DNA from: Haemophilus influenzae
GTDB lineage: Bacteria > Pseudomonadota > Gammaproteobacteria > Enterobacterales > Pasteurellaceae
DNA length: 64,000 bases
Direction of reading: 5' to 3'
NCBI RefSeq assembly: GCF_001457655.1
Contig: NZ_LN831035.1
Location: 62,001 to 126,000, forward strand
This document shows positions 9,305-53,752 of the stretch, one piece after another; the stretch's first letter is position 1, and the number at the start of each line of letters is the position of its first letter. Position numbers and translations under genes: made by a program. Under the pieces are notes generated by a model. That model had not been told where the DNA came from. It saw only the letters and a program-made list of their open reading frames with translations, and did not search any database.

Positions 9305-9721
9305 ATGACATTACAGAAATTTTTGTTACCCCCATTATTATTTTTATCAATAAATACCTTTGCAGCACCAGCATATTTGCTTTTTGGTGGAGATAATCAT
9401 GATAAATTTTTAGGCTGTTTGAACTGTAGTAAACATGATAACTCATCAATTTGGAATAAATATGGTGAATTCGGCTCTAAATATAATAGCGATAGTATTT
9501 GGAATAAATACGGAACTTATGGCTCTAAGTATAACAGTGAAAGTCCTTGGAATAAGTATTCTACAAGTGGGCCAGTGATTGTTGATAATGAAGGTAACTT
9601 TTATGGTAAATTCACAACTAATAAGTATGATAATCAGACAAGAATTAAATCTCTTCTTTGGATTTTAGAAAATCATGAATATATTATTGAAAATATTAAT
9701 GATGTGATAGATAAAATGTAA
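9305..9721 (+). CDS. Secreted protein with three tandem WNKYG repeats, function unknown
   Basis: A 138-residue predicted exported protein. A hydrophobic signal peptide (about residues 5-20, ending NTFAAP) is followed by a Cys pair (CLNC) and three tandem 16-residue repeats beginning at residues 49, 65 and 81. The first reads IWNKYGEFGSKYNSDS; the DNA period is 48 bp (about 9449-9592). A charged helical tail ends at residue 138. The repeats are Asn/Tyr/Gly/Ser-rich, as in some surface or periplasmic proteins. I recognise no named family. It is preceded by CTAAGGAAAATGCT. The composition is more AT-rich than glyQ and glyS on either side, consistent with an accessory gene. Confidence 0.72.
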   Translation: MTLQKFLLPPLLFLSINTFAAPAYLLFGGDNHDKFLGCLNCSKHDNSSIWNKYGEFGSKYNSDSIWNKYGTYGSKYNSESPWNKYSTSGPVIVDNEGNFYGKFTTNKYDNQTRIKSLLWILENHEYIIENINDVIDKM

Positions 9722-19599: not shown

Positions 19600-22008
19600 A
19601 TGAAAAAACTTCTAATCGCAAGTTTATTATTCGGTACGACAACGACTGTGTTTGCCGCACCTTTTGTGGCAAAAGATATTCGTGTGGATGGTGTTCAAGG
19701 TGACTTAGAACAACAAATCCGAGCAAGTTTACCTGTTCGTGCCGGTCAGCGTGTGACTGACAATGATGTGGCTAATATTGTCCGCTCTTTATTCGTAAGT
19801 GGTCGATTCGATGATGTGAAAGCGCATCAAGAAGGCGATGTGCTTGTTGTTAGCGTTGTGGCTAAATCGATCATTTCAGATGTTAAAATCAAAGGTAACT
19901 CTATTATTCCCACTGAAGCACTAAAACAAAACTTAGATGCTAACGGGTTTAAAGTTGGCGATGTTTTAATTCGAGAAAAATTAAATGAATTTGCCAAAAG
20001 TGTAAAAGAGCACTATGCAAGTGTAGGTCGCTATAACGCAACCGTTGAACCTATTGTCAATACGCTACCAAATAATCGCGCTGAAATTTTAATTCAAATC
20101 AATGAAGATGATAAAGCAAAATTGGCATCATTAACTTTCAAGGGGAACGAATCTGTTAGTAGCAGTACATTACAAGAACAAATGGAATTACAACCTGATT
20201 CTTGGTGGAAATTATGGGGAAATAAATTTGAAGGTGCGCAATTCGAGAAAGATTTGCAGTCAATTCGTGATTATTATTTAAATAATGGCTATGCCAAAGC
20301 ACAAATTACTAAAACGGATGTTCAGCTAAATGATGAAAAAACAAAAGTTAATGTAACCATTGATGTAAATGAAGGTTTACAGTATGACCTTCGTAGTGCA
20401 CGCATTATAGGTAATCTGGGAGGTATGTCTGCCGAGCTTGAACCTTTACTTTCAGCATTACATTTAAATGATACTTTCCGCCGTAGTGATATTGCAGATG
20501 TAGAAAATGCAATTAAAGCAAAACTTGGAGAACGCGGTTACGGTAGCGCAACGGTAAATTCAGTACCTGATTTTGATGATGCAAATAAAACATTAGCGAT
20601 AACCCTTGTTGTTGATGCTGGACGACGTTTAACTGTTCGCCAACTTCGCTTTGAAGGAAATACCGTTTCTGCTGATAGCACTTTACGTCAGGAAATGCGC
20701 CAACAAGAAGGAACTTGGTATAATTCACAATTAGTTGAGTTAGGAAAAATTCGCTTAGATCGTACAGGTTTCTTCGAAACAGTCGAAAACCGAATTGATC
20801 CTATCAATGGTAGTAATGATGAAGTGGATGTCGTATATAAAGTCAAAGAACGTAACACGGGTAGTATCAACTTTGGTATTGGTTACGGTACAGAGAGTGG
20901 TATTAGTTATCAAGCAAGTATTAAACAAGATAATTTCTTAGGAACAGGGGCGGCAGTAAGTATAGCTGGTACGAAAAATGATTATGGTACGAGTGTCAAT
21001 TTGGGTTATACCGAGCCCTATTTTACTAAAGATGGTGTAAGTCTTGGTGGAAATGTTTTCTTTGAAAACTACGATAACTCTAAAAGTGATACATCCTCTA
21101 ACTATAAGCGTACGACTTATGGAAGTAATGTTACTTTAGGTTTCCCTGTAAATGAAAATAACTCCTATTATGTAGGATTAGGCCATACCTATAATAAAAT
21201 TAGTAACTTTGCTCTAGAATATAACCGTAATTTATATATTCAATCAATGAAATTTAAAGGTAATGGCATTAAAACAAATGACTTTGATTTTTCTTTTGGT
21301 TGGAACTATAACAGCCTTAATAGAGGCTATTTCCCAACTAAAGGGGTTAAAGCAAGTCTTGGTGGACGAGTTACAATTCCAGGTTCTGATAACAAATACT
21401 ACAAACTAAGTGCAGACGTACAGGGTTTCTACCCATTAGACAGAGATCACCTCTGGGTTGTATCTGCAAAAGCATCTGCAGGATATGCAAATGGTTTCGG
21501 AAACAAGCGTTTACCGTTCTATCAAACTTATACAGCGGGTGGCATCGGCTCATTACGTGGTTTTGCTTATGGTAGTATTGGTCCTAACGCAATTTACCAA
21601 GATCAAAATAATAATAATAATAATAAAAAAAATAATAATAATAAATTTACAAAAGTCAGCTCAGATGTTGTTGGTGGCAATGCAATTGCAACCGCAACTG
21701 CAGAATTAATTGTGCCAACTCCATTTGTGAGCGATAAAAGCCAAAATACAGTCCGAACCTCCCTATTTGTTGATGCGGCAAGTGTTTGGAATACAAAATG
21801 GAAATCAGATAAAACTGGATTAGATAGCAATGTATTAGCAAGATTGCCTGATTATGGCAAATCAAGCCGTATTCGCGCCTCTACAGGTGTCGGATTCCAA
21901 TGGCAATCTCCTATTGGACCATTGGTATTTTCTTATGCTAAACCAATTAAAAAATATGAAAATGATGATGTCGAACAGTTCCAATTTAGTATTGGGGGTT
22001 CTTTCTAA
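19600..22008 (+). CDS. bamA: Outer-membrane protein assembly factor BamA (D15/Oma87)
   Basis: BamA is the core of the Bam complex that folds and inserts outer-membrane beta-barrels. The 802-residue product has a signal peptide ([12 protein letters not shown]...VFA), five POTRA domains to about residue 425, and a 16-strand barrel ending in a terminal Phe (FQFSIGGSF). The start at 19600 is chosen over 19549 because it gives a normal signal sequence. The loop-6 RGF motif is present in [17 protein letters not shown]. About 15 residues later comes a 13-residue Asn/Lys run (residues 670-682) encoded by AAT repeats, which looks like a strain-variable surface insertion. D15 is a known protective surface antigen of H. 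influenzae. Confidence 0.97.
21607..21645 (+). repeat. AAT trinucleotide tract inside bamA
   Basis: Six AAT codons (21607-21624), two AAA, four AAT (21631-21642) and one AAA encode N6-K2-N4-K. Changes in copy number would alter loop length without shifting the frame. Confidence 0.9.
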
Positions 22009-49288: not shown

Positions 49289-50554
49289 TCATTTCGGATA
49301 AACTGGAAGACGTTTACAAATTGCTAATACTTTTTCTTTAGTTTCAGCAATCACTTGTTCTTCATTTTCTTTGCCTAAAGCATCTAAAACATCACACATC
49401 CAGCCAGCTAATTCACGCACATCATTTTCATTGAAACCACGGCGAGTCACAGATGGTGTACCTACACGGATGCCAGAAGTGACGAATGGTTTTTGCGGAT
49501 CGTTTGGTACAGCATTTTTATTCACTGTAATATTTGCTTTGCCTAATGCCGCATCAGCTGCTTTACCTGTTAATCCTTGTTTAATAAAACTTACTAAGAA
49601 CAAGTGGTTTTCAGTGCCATTTGACACAACGTCATAACCACGTTGTTTAAATACCTCAACCATTGCTTTCGCATTTTTGATTACATTTGCTTGGTATTCT
49701 TTATATTGAGGCTCTAATGCTTCTTTAAAGCAAACTGCTTTTGCCGCAATAATATGAACTAATGGACCACCTTGATTTGCAGGGAATACGGATGATTGTA
49801 ATTTTTTGTAGATTTCTTCATCGCCACAAGATGAAAGAATTAAACCACCACGCGGACCGCCCAACGTTTTATGGGTTGTTGTTGTCACAACATGTGCATG
49901 AGGGAGTGGATTTAGATATAAACCCGCTGCAATTAATCCCGCTACATGCGCCATATCCACAAATAAATACGCACCAACTTCATCTGCGATTTCACGCATT
50001 TTCGCCCAATCCACAACTTGTGAATAAGCCGAGAAACCAGCAACGATAAGTTTTGGTTTACATTCTAATGCTTTTTGACGAACATCTTCATAATCAATTA
50101 AGCCATCCGCAGTAATTCCATAAAGTACGGAGTTATAAATTTTGCCAGAGAAACTGACTTTTGCACCGTGAGTTAAATGACCACCGTGAGCCAAATCCAT
50201 ACCTAAAATAGTATCGCCTGCATTAATCAATGCACCATACACCGCAGCATTCGCTTGTGATCCAGAGTGCGGTTGAACATTCACGTAATCTGCACCAAAT
50301 AATTCTTTCGCACGGTCAATTGCTAACTGTTCCACAATGTCCGCATACTCACAACCACCGTAATAACGTTTACCTGGATAGCCTTCCGCATATTTATTAG
50401 TGAATTGTGAACCTTGCGCTTCCATCACACGTGGACTCGCATAGTTTTCAGATGCAATGAGTTCGATATGTTCTTCTTGACGACGATTTTCATCTTGGAT
50501 CGCTTGCCACAATACTGGATCGTAATCAGCGATAGTCATATTTCTTGTAAACAT
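49289..50554 (-). CDS. glyA: Serine hydroxymethyltransferase
   Basis: GlyA converts serine and tetrahydrofolate to glycine and methylene-tetrahydrofolate. This feeds purine (purH) and thymidylate (thyA) synthesis, both also encoded in the window. The 421-residue PLP enzyme begins [20 protein letters not shown] (20 residues). It has [20 protein letters not shown] for substrate binding and [20 protein letters not shown] with the PLP lysine (20 residues). AGGAGAACACA precedes the ATG. It ends with its own terminator; the AT-rich phosphoethanolamine transferase gene lies upstream. Confidence 0.98.
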
Positions 50555-50676: not shown

Positions 50677-52266
50677 TTAATGAACATACTCTTGTTTACC
50701 ATTAGATTCTATTTTTAGGTATCCAGCATCACCTGTGAGAATATTTCCATTAACAACCCCCTTATCGCAAGTGCTAACTGAATAGTTATATCCCATTATA
50801 TTAATAATAAAGCTAGATAACTGATTATGAAATGAAATCTTACATGATTCAAAATTGTCCAACACTAGTTTCTGTATTTCTTCATTTGGACTATATAGAA
50901 CTAATGGCACAATATAATTATCTTCATCAAATGTCCCTTGCTTATAAGTGTCGCCTTTTACATATTGACCATGATCTGATGTATAGGCAATTATCCAATC
51001 TTTAGAAGATTTATTAGATAAGTAATGGTAAACCTCTGAGATAAAGTTATCAGTATTTAGAATAGTATTATCATAATTATCTGTTGCGTTATTTTTTCCA
51101 AACACCTTCTCTTTTTCATCTAATAATGCCCCATAGGGAATATGACTCCCTCTATGATGTAAAACAACAAAATGATAACCATTATCTAAATTAATATTTT
51201 TAAAAGCAGGAAGTAATTTATTATCAGGCATTGAATCTCTTAAAGAATACCCTTCATTATCTGGAAAACGAATATCATCAATCCAAGCTCCTCCTAAAAA
51301 ATTGATCATATGCATATCATCCCTAGCTTGAGCTGAATAAAAATATGTCTGAAAGCCTTGCTCTTTCGCTAAATTAAATAAATTCGTATCTCCTTTAGCT
51401 ATCTGTTGTATTCCATTTGGATAAGGAATTGCATTAAAAAACATTGGTAAAGAAATTGCTGTTAGCTTTCCTCCTGAATAAGTTTTACCAACAAGAGCTC
51501 CTGATTTATATTTTAAGCTATCTAAAAAAGGAGATGTTTTTCTCCCGTAACCAAAAGCACTAAAATGACTTGAGGTCGCACTTTCCCCCATAATTAAAAT
51601 TATATTCTTAATTTTCGGAGAGCCCGATTTCATAGGCTTAGATTTATGATAAAGAGGAATATTAGATAAAGAAAATATCTCATAAGGAACAATTCGTCCT
51701 ATAAAATAACCCAACGATAAATAATTGGATTTTAATCGAGAATAAACAGTGTTAGGTGAAATAAAACGCTCATGGGATTTTGTTGTATACGCTCGAACAA
51801 AAACATACATCATCACAGCATAAAAAATAAAGTCAAAAATCCAAGAAAGTTTATATACTTTTCTTTTTATGAAACTTAAACTTAAAAACACAGCAACTTC
51901 AAATAAACCAAATAACAATGGATATATGAATTTATCTATCATTGTTAAGCCAGCATTTGTTATCTCATTAATTTCTTTAAATGCAAGTGAGTAATTAACA
52001 GGTCCAATCCAAGATTGGTATACTGCATAATGTACATTATTAACAACAATACTTATTGCAAATAAAGCGCCAACTAATATTCTTGTAATTCTATATTTTG
52101 AAAAAACAAACAAACAAACAAACAAACAAACAGACAAATAACTTTCAGTGTATCTCTCAATACTAGAAATATTAAATAATTTTCTATAAATAACTTCTAA
52201 TGAAAGAAGAATTGCAGAATATAATACTACGATGACAAATTGTCGCATAAGTTGATATAACCTCAT
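50677..52266 (-). CDS. Phosphoethanolamine transferase (EptA/Lpt family), candidate phase-variable
   Basis: A 529-residue inner-membrane enzyme of the sulfatase-fold phosphoethanolamine transferase family, which decorates lipid A or inner-core LPS. About five N-terminal membrane segments (to about residue 160) precede a periplasmic catalytic domain. That domain has the nucleophile motif LIMGESATSSHFSAFGYGRK (20 residues; Thr in ESATS), KTYSGGKLTAISLPMFF, HHRGSHIPYGAL and the metal site AYTSDHGQYVKG. Base composition is clearly more AT-rich than glyA and purD around it, with many ATA/AGA codons. Codons 43-55 are made from tandem TTTG units; loss or gain of one would shift the frame near residue 47. 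In this sequence the frame is open (ON). The exact LPS acceptor cannot be told. Confidence 0.9.
   Translation of the reverse strand: MRLYQLMRQFVIVVLYSAILLSLEVIYRKLFNISSIERYTESYLSVCLFVCLFVFSKYRITRILVGALFAISIVVNNVHYAVYQSWIGPVNYSLAFKEINEITNAGLTMIDKFIYPLLFGLFEVAVFLSLSFIKRKVYKLSWIFDFIFYAVMMYVFVRAYTTKSHERFISPNTVYSRLKSNYLSLGYFIGRIVPYEIFSLSNIPLYHKSKPMKSGSPKIKNIILIMGESATSSHFSAFGYGRKTSPFLDSLKYKSGALVGKTYSGGKLTAISLPMFFNAIPYPNGIQQIAKGDTNLFNLAKEQGFQTYFYSAQARDDMHMINFLGGAWIDDIRFPDNEGYSLRDSMPDNKLLPAFKNINLDNGYHFVVLHHRGSHIPYGALLDEKEKVFGKNNATDNYDNTILNTDNFISEVYHYLSNKSSKDWIIAYTSDHGQYVKGDTYKQGTFDEDNYIVPLVLYSPNEEIQKLVLDNFESCKISFHNQLSSFIINIMGYNYSVSTCDKGVVNGNILTGDAGYLKIESNGKQEYVH
52101..52138 (-). repeat. TTTG tetranucleotide tract in the PEtn transferase gene
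   Basis: Six perfect tandem units (CAAA on the plus strand, 52107-52130; TTTG in the message) are flanked by one degenerate CAGA unit, a further CAAA, and an A-run. In frame they encode repeating Val-Cys-Leu-Phe in a membrane helix. Confidence 0.92.
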
Positions 52267-52403: not shown

Positions 52404-53693
52404 CTATTTTGCTTGTTCTCGTTCCACAGCCCTGTAACCAATGTCTCGACGATAAAAACGCCCAGACCATTGAATTTGCTCAGCCAATTTTAACGCTTTT
52501 TGTTGTGCTTCAAATACACTTTCGCCTAACGCAGTCACACAAAGTACACGACCGCCGTTTGTGACTAGCTTGCCTTCTTGTTCTGCGACACCCGCTAAGA
52601 AAACTTTCTCGTTTTTGACCGCACTTTTAGGCAATCCGCTGATTTCATCGCCTTTGCGATAATCCTTTGGATATCCCTCTGCAGCCAATACGATACCTAA
52701 AGAAGCTCGTGGATCCCATTGTGATATTACTTCATCTAATTTGCCGTCACATGCTTTAAGACAGAGTTCAACAAGGTCTGATTTGAGACGTAGCATTATT
52801 GGCTGCGTTTCTGGATCACCAAAACGACAATTAAATTCGATCACTTTCGGCTGCCCATTTGGCATAATCATTAATCCTGCATATAGGAAACCCGTGTAAA
52901 CACTGCCTTCCGCTGCCATGCCATTAACGGTTGGGTAAATCACTTCCTTCATAATGCGACTATGAATTTCGGGTGTTATTACTGGTGCAGGCGAATACGC
53001 GCCCATACCGCCTGTATTTAACCCCGTATCATTTTCGCCCACGCGTTTATGATCTTGGCTAGTAGCCATAGGTTCTACGTTTTTACCATCTACCATGACG
53101 ATAAAACTTGCTTCTTCGCCATCTAGAAATTCTTCAATCACTACTCGGCTGCCCGCTTCGCCAAAGGCATTACCAGAAAGCATATCGCGTACTGCATCTT
53201 CGGCTTCTTGCAATGTCATCGCAACGATTACGCCTTTACCCGCCGCCAAGCCATCCGCTTTAACGACAATTGGTGTGCCTTTTTCACGCAAGTAAGTCAA
53301 TGCAGGTTCGACTTCGGTGAAGTTTTGATATTCCGCTGTTGGAATTTTATGACGAGCGAGAAAATCTTTAGTGAATGCCTTTGAACCTTCCAATTGCGCA
53401 GCCGCTTTAGCTGGCCCAAAAATCTTCAATCCAGCTTCACGAAATGCATCAACTACCCCAATCACTAAGGGGGCTTCAGGACCAACAATGGTTAATCCAA
53501 TTTGTTTATCTTGAGCAAATTTCACTAATGCTGGAATATCTGTCGCAGAAATATTCACGTTTTCTACTTTGTGTTCCAATGCAGTACCAGCGTTACCCGG
53601 TGCGACAAAAACTTTATCTGCTAATGGAGATTGTGCAACTTTCCAAGCCAAGGCGTGTTCACGACCGCCGTTTCCGATGATGAGGATGTTCAT
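52404..53693 (-). CDS. purD: Phosphoribosylamine-glycine ligase
   Basis: PurD (GAR synthetase) joins glycine to phosphoribosylamine, step 2 of de novo purine synthesis. The 429-residue ATP-grasp enzyme begins MNILIIGNGGREHALAWKVA (20 residues). It has KADGLAAGKGVIVA for ATP binding, RVGENDTGLNTGGMGAYSPA (20 residues) and FNCRFGDPETQ for metal. The ATG at 53693 follows AAGGACTACAAC; a start 19 codons upstream overlaps the purH-purD spacer hairpin and is rejected. It follows purH after a 95-base spacer. Confidence 0.97.
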   Translation of the reverse strand: MNILIIGNGGREHALAWKVAQSPLADKVFVAPGNAGTALEHKVENVNISATDIPALVKFAQDKQIGLTIVGPEAPLVIGVVDAFREAGLKIFGPAKAAAQLEGSKAFTKDFLARHKIPTAEYQNFTEVEPALTYLREKGTPIVVKADGLAAGKGVIVAMTLQEAEDAVRDMLSGNAFGEAGSRVVIEEFLDGEEASFIVMVDGKNVEPMATSQDHKRVGENDTGLNTGGMGAYSPAPVITPEIHSRIMKEVIYPTVNGMAAEGSVYTGFLYAGLMIMPNGQPKVIEFNCRFGDPETQPIMLRLKSDLVELCLKACDGKLDEVISQWDPRASLGIVLAAEGYPKDYRKGDEISGLPKSAVKNEKVFLAGVAEQEGKLVTNGGRVLCVTALGESVFEAQQKALKLAEQIQWSGRFYRRDIGYRAVEREQAK

Positions 53694-53752
53694 GTTGTAG
53701 TCCTTGCGTATGCCTAATTTAAAAAAAGTACGGCTATTTTTTACCTGCAATT

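Follow-up and report, generated by a model that had tools for sequence, protein, structure and literature searches.

A short tetranucleotide tract in a putative phosphoethanolamine transferase gene of Haemophilus influenzae as a candidate low-rate ON/OFF switch

In a 64,000-nucleotide stretch of the Haemophilus influenzae genome (contig NZ_LN831035.1, positions 62,001 to 126,000; hereafter the window), an intact gene for a phosphoethanolamine (PEtn) transferase of the Lpt3/EptA type contains seven tandem GTTT units. We consider it likely, with a probability of about 0.7, that this tract is a low-rate, frame-shifting ON/OFF contingency locus of a lipopolysaccharide (LPS) PEtn transferase, the enzyme being presumed to transfer PEtn and the switch presumed to be reversible within a clone. 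In the proposed mechanism, slippage would be the cause of changes in the number of GTTT units. Seven units, as found in the window, would permit read-through to the full transferase, and the other unit numbers seen would stop translation after about 53–62 residues, before the catalytic domain. The ON form would then transfer PEtn to what is presumably an inner-core acceptor, and switching back and forth would presumably benefit the cell.

We favor this reading because the tract lies beyond chance and seven of ten short natural products fit five, six, eight or nine units on several backgrounds; because the in-frame allele has conserved catalytic residues and a confident structure model; and because the published sections consulted hold precedents, namely the LPS genes with tetranucleotide repeats, the poly-T tract of Neisseria EptA and the TTTA tract in a helix of HI0687. 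While this kind of mechanism is already known, no report of an AAAC-tract transferase locus was found in the open-licence papers searched, and its natural out-of-frame alleles are directly evidenced. If the reading is correct, PEtn decoration of LPS is to be counted among the surface properties that H. influenzae varies through slippage of repeats. Isolates compared by the seven-locus LOS switching panel of PMC6479036, which comprises no PEtn transferase as far as the consulted sections of that paper go, may then differ in an unseen trait. The locus would also be a case of protein structure capping repeat length, and hence switching rate. The features concerned are listed in Table 1.

Table 1. 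Features of the transferase locus, in window coordinates
Feature	Position	Strand	Description and basis
Perfect period-4 tract	52104..52132	(-)	29 bp, (AAAC)7.25 on the + strand; seven GTTT units in message sense
Degenerate unit AGAC (GTCT in message)	52132..52135	(-)	Message-5' of the tract; read from sequence
Run of six A (T in message)	52101..52106	(-)	Overlaps the message-3' end of the tract; sequence; P0124 would fit a one-T loss here, judging from its peptide
Predicted second helix, codons 39–55	52102..52152	(-)	Contains the tract; structure model
PEtn transferase ORF (Lpt3/EptA-like)	50677..52266	(-)	529 aa, intact, in frame; ORF translation, Pfam, structure matches, model
Met7 codon	52246..52248	(-)	Alternative, perhaps true start (523 aa); close orthologues begin there
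purD, upstream neighbour	52404..53705	(-)	ORF; 433-aa reading served as query
glyA, downstream neighbour	49289..50554	(-)	ORF, locus comparison

The transferase reading frame harbors, from codon 46 onwards, a non-triplet tandem repeat far beyond chance. Three perfect tracts with periods of 1–9 exceed our thresholds in the window, and this one is the longest. In 200 order-4 Markov simulations of the window, tracts grew to 16 bp at most, short of the 29 bp observed, and among 200,000 random synonymous recodings of residues 41–62, just 35 and 52 attained 29 bp with the two codon tables used. A preliminary description of this DNA had counted six TTTG units with degenerate flanks; TTTG is a rotation of the same motif, and the tract as well as a degenerate GTCT unit were borne out, with the count now standing at seven. 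In the genome that contains the window (G000), a search for four AAAC units gave four matches, the number expected from one seven-unit tract. The other tracts sized there are longer (CAAT 27.75, CCAA 29, GACA 35 and 16 units), and that seven units are short against these 16–35 speaks against a switch; the tracts were found by motif searches, the sizes refer only to those that were sized, and one search is represented by the first places of its 206 matches.

Several other repeats were observed alongside. The CAAT tract of 27.75 units (G000:C1:131932-132042), about 6 kb past the end of the window, is of a kind typical of classic contingency loci. Seven of the ten genus genomes (G000, G001, G002, G003, G004, G006 and G008) have AAAC tracts with four or more units, and matches in the others of these seven are often far more numerous than in G000. 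The window itself also holds a slightly imperfect AAT trinucleotide tract (21607-21644, 12.7 copies), a 48-bp unit (9449-9555, 2.2 copies, 80% matches) and 49 copies of the uptake-signal core, which, like the gene order, point to H. influenzae.

To a search with the N-terminal 47 residues of the window protein, the protein collection returned ten matches, every one of them short (53–63 residues). Their unit numbers were read from these peptides by codon arithmetic. On this reading, seven of the ten fit five, six, eight or nine units rather than seven, with both wrong frames represented. Six units fit P0122 on a plain background, P0121 if an extra GTCT unit is included, P0126 with Ser45 replaced by Phe, and the diverged allele P0128; five fit P0129, which carries an upstream duplication, eight fit P0123, again on a plain background, and nine fit P0125, including an extra GTCT unit. 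P0124 fits seven units minus one T beside the tract, and P0127 and P0130 already diverge before the tract and look rearranged or unclear, which counts against the switch. Half of the ten (P0121–P0125) are 100% identical to the query across the aligned part. Together, the short proteins comprise 31 member sequences on 64 contigs, these being database counts rather than isolates; P0122 is found on 18 contigs and P0126 on 26, the longest contig having 1,979,786 bases. The in-frame form, P0001 (506 residues, 175 members), has the same repeat peptide as the window protein.

Since seven of the short proteins fit a count different from that of the window, the tract is of variable length in nature, and alleles out of frame occur; at the peptide level, the repeat number differs among natural sequences and shifts the frame. 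The preliminary description had anticipated that a change of one unit would shift the frame and remove the catalytic domain, and the short products in both wrong frames indeed end before that domain. It had also named a constant repeat number as the finding that would speak against an ON/OFF switch; at the peptide level, the number is not constant, which supports the candidate. As a control, the 41-residue N-terminus of the repeat-less orthologue in G002 (84% identical) matched a single short protein, which has one member, from one contig. This comparison is unmatched in sampling, with 513 members in the control's full-length relative P0002 versus 175 in P0001, members that are not isolates, and queries of 41 versus 47 residues; we take the contrast as support rather than as proof. 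A Fisher test on cluster member counts was set aside, as members are not isolates.

The protein encoded by the in-frame allele has the hallmarks of a PEtn transferase. Its reading frame is intact over the 529 residues described earlier, although close orthologues suggest that translation may truly begin at Met7. The Pfam Sulfatase model passes at residues 220–465. Among the 14 NCBIfam models that match, all below cut-off or marginal, 12 are named for PEtn transfer or for MCR/CptA/EptA; no curated family model passed, the best of the 14 scoring 59.3 against a cut-off of 500. Seventeen sequences of solved structures match, with Neisseria EptA on top, and E228, T269, D431 and H432 align with E240, T280, D452 and H453 of EptA. 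In an alignment of the window protein with 52 of the 120 homologues found, E228 and D431 are invariant, and T269 and H432 are at least 90% conserved. By these alignments, the catalytic domain is of the sulfatase type and retains both the catalytic Thr and the metal-site residues. A structure model built on the same 53 proteins (mean pLDDT 91.8) has MCR-1 and EptA as its best fold matches, which are modest over the full length (TM about 0.45, rmsd about 15) and better for the soluble domain alone (TM 0.68 by target length). As modelled, N-terminal membrane helices are joined to a soluble domain in an EptA-like fold.

Judged by its sequence, the gene product probably adds PEtn to LPS. Neisseria homologues are 48–49% identical to it over nearly the whole protein, the putative link to Lpt3 being taken from the consulted sections of PMC2651432. 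By analogy with Lpt3, the acceptor is most likely the LPS inner core. More speculatively, the enzyme, if acting at HepII O-3, could compete with sugar extension there, and the switch might then pick between PEtn and chain growth. A role in cationic-peptide resistance, which had been put forward in the preliminary description, was set aside for the Lpt3 subfamily, probably the nearest characterised one: the link is weak there, as inactivation of gonococcal lpt3 left polymyxin susceptibility unchanged according to the part consulted of the review PMC10525099.

That the repeat falls in a membrane helix had been proposed before and agrees with the predicted helix 39–55, which holds the tract. This helix aligns gap-free with the eight closest orthologue clusters (P0002–P0009), none of which contains the full repeat peptide, and gaps at the helix occur in 4 of 52 distant alignment rows. 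Because of the gap-free alignment, seven units appear to keep the ancestral helix length. A count of four or ten would stay in frame but alter the helix by four residues. Regarding the rate, the class table in the consulted part of PMC4235727 assigns 3–9 TAAA or 3–12 AGTC units to the mutable class, with rates of 1e-7 to 1e-5 per division, and places the hypermutable class above about 9–10 units for these motifs. By analogy, seven AAAC units, a motif absent from that table, would be mutable and not hypermutable, in keeping with the low rate guessed earlier. Being outside the hypermutable class, the short tract makes fast switching less credible but does not weaken the case for slow switching. 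That the repeat number sets the rate in H. influenzae is credited to De Bolle 2000 in the section consulted of the review PMC11868660.

A joint reading of a length-locked slow switch in an lpt3-like family that is a recurrent target is one that we put forward tentatively, with the odds leaning against it. As one unit number alone would give the ancestral helix length, the structure would keep the tract short and the switch slow, in contrast to classic contingency loci, where the encoded repeats form loops and are free to lengthen. That such tracts may arise repeatedly in the family is suggested by a heptanucleotide tract in another of its homologues.

The transferase gene differs from its neighbours in GC content (29.1%, versus 44.5% for purD and 39.8% for glyA). 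While purD is present in all ten genus genomes, the transferase adjoins it in G000 and G002; purD and glyA lie 126 bp apart in seven of the ten, and neither neighbour was found in the stretch of G003 examined. G005 and G006, although labelled as the same species, do not have the gene, which counts against the switch, and G004 and G008 have 45–46% homologues elsewhere in their genomes. The low GC content and the genomes with 126 bp between purD and glyA suggested a recent horizontal insertion, but this need not be the sole origin: the gene also lies between purD and glyA, in the same order, in G002 and in four Rodentibacter-like genomes, so that an ancient gene with losses in many lineages would explain the data equally well.

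In the wider family, 30 of 140 genomes match the transferase at E <= 1e-60. A scan of these 30 loci, covering the match and 300 bases on each side, found the AAAC tract in the window's locus only, a heptanucleotide tract of five units at L109, and none above the thresholds in the other 28. At least one neighbour gene was found in 13 of the 30 stretches. Six have the full order purD, transferase, glyA; another six have purD alone, after the transferase; and one has glyA alone. Across the family, lpt3-like genes recur beside purD or glyA, with purD on varying sides (L094–L097, L100, L103, L104, L106, L115, L117, L119). The homologues at L113, L117, L118 and L119 look broken, with frame changes or in several pieces, and have no repeat tract; the L113 homologue shifts frame close to where the counterpart of the tract-bearing helix ends. 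An AGTC-switched gene adjoining purD did not turn up in the genus: G001 alone among the ten genomes has an AGTC tract, and neither purD nor glyA nor the transferase was found within the surrounding 3 kb. Promoter-like and terminator-like sites were not informatively above shuffles.

The out-of-frame alleles might instead be dead ends on the way to one-way loss of a dispensable gene, with the tract as its commonest break site. The absence of the gene from G005, G006 and most family genomes is consistent with this, as are the four homologues that look broken without a tract, the one-base change behind P0124 and the single short product of the repeat-less control. Yet in seven of the ten short products the difference amounts to whole units, with counts both above and below seven and on several backgrounds, and the window copy is intact with its catalytic residues conserved; we regard such loss as unlikely. 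It is also quite improbable, in our estimate, that a helix rich in Val, Cys, Leu and Phe merely drifted into a perfect repeat with no regulatory role. The helix peptide does predate the tract, since tract-less relatives encode nearly the same helix (e.g. LFVCLFVVLFVY in Rodentibacter), but synonymous recodings produce such a tract very rarely. Moreover, even a tract born by chance now varies and shifts the frame, so that this explanation differs from the ON/OFF switch solely in whether selection keeps the tract.

Repeats miscounted in draft genomes, through assembly or sequencing errors, could in principle yield short proteins as well, and the single homopolymer T that sets P0124 apart and the rearranged appearance of P0127 and P0130 would suit such an origin. 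The numbers of contigs bearing P0122 and P0126, and the length of some of them, argue against it, and common reads are unlikely to miscount a tract of 28 bases by an entire 4-base unit. We therefore hold an artefact to be very improbable and return to the low-rate ON/OFF switch in comparing the locus with known systems.

The nearest precedents in H. influenzae are licA, lic2A, lic3A, lgtC, lex2A and oafA, which, according to the sources as consulted, likewise have a tetranucleotide tract within a surface-decoration ORF and shift the frame by whole units. According to the consulted sections of PMC2651432 (Power et al. 2009), the tracts of those LPS loci are mostly found where the ORF begins, and the peptides that they encode are hydrophilic and loop out, whereas here seven units lie in a membrane helix. 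In the same sections, Table 5 lists 28 tetranucleotide loci in 16 strains, none being an AAAC tract in a PEtn transferase, and CAAA tracts (AAAC rotated) appear only with YadA-type genes. The lpt3 homologue of strain 86-028NP, NTHi_1053, resembles the window gene in its low GC content (under 30% versus 29.1%), but these sections list no AAAC tract for it, which counts against the switch; at its site, strain R2846 instead has an AGTC-switched glycosyltransferase. The exporter HI0687 has a TTTA tract (six and four units) that is also short and has a hydrophobic product in a predicted membrane helix, but it differs from the window locus in gene class and motif. For P. multocida lpt3, one review, as far as consulted, states that it is phase variable, and another that phase variation is not in evidence in the species; we drew on neither.

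PEtn transferases that switch are already known from Neisseria, where, in the part consulted of PMC6111236, slippage within the 5' portion of the coding sequence turns EptA/LptA ON and OFF, as is proposed here, and the OFF product has 62 residues. It differs from the window locus in that the tract is a mononucleotide poly-T, the enzyme acts on lipid A and the reported rate is 1e-4. Finally, a homologue from Pasteurellaceae bacterium Pebbles2 (P0050; L109, in G088) belongs to the same transferase family and also has a frame-shifting repeat: at about 2244-2279 of L109, the heptanucleotide ACAGCAA is repeated within the coding sequence of an lpt3-like gene, with the same peptide in P0050. Unlike the tract described here, that of Pebbles2 is located in a loop of the catalytic domain.
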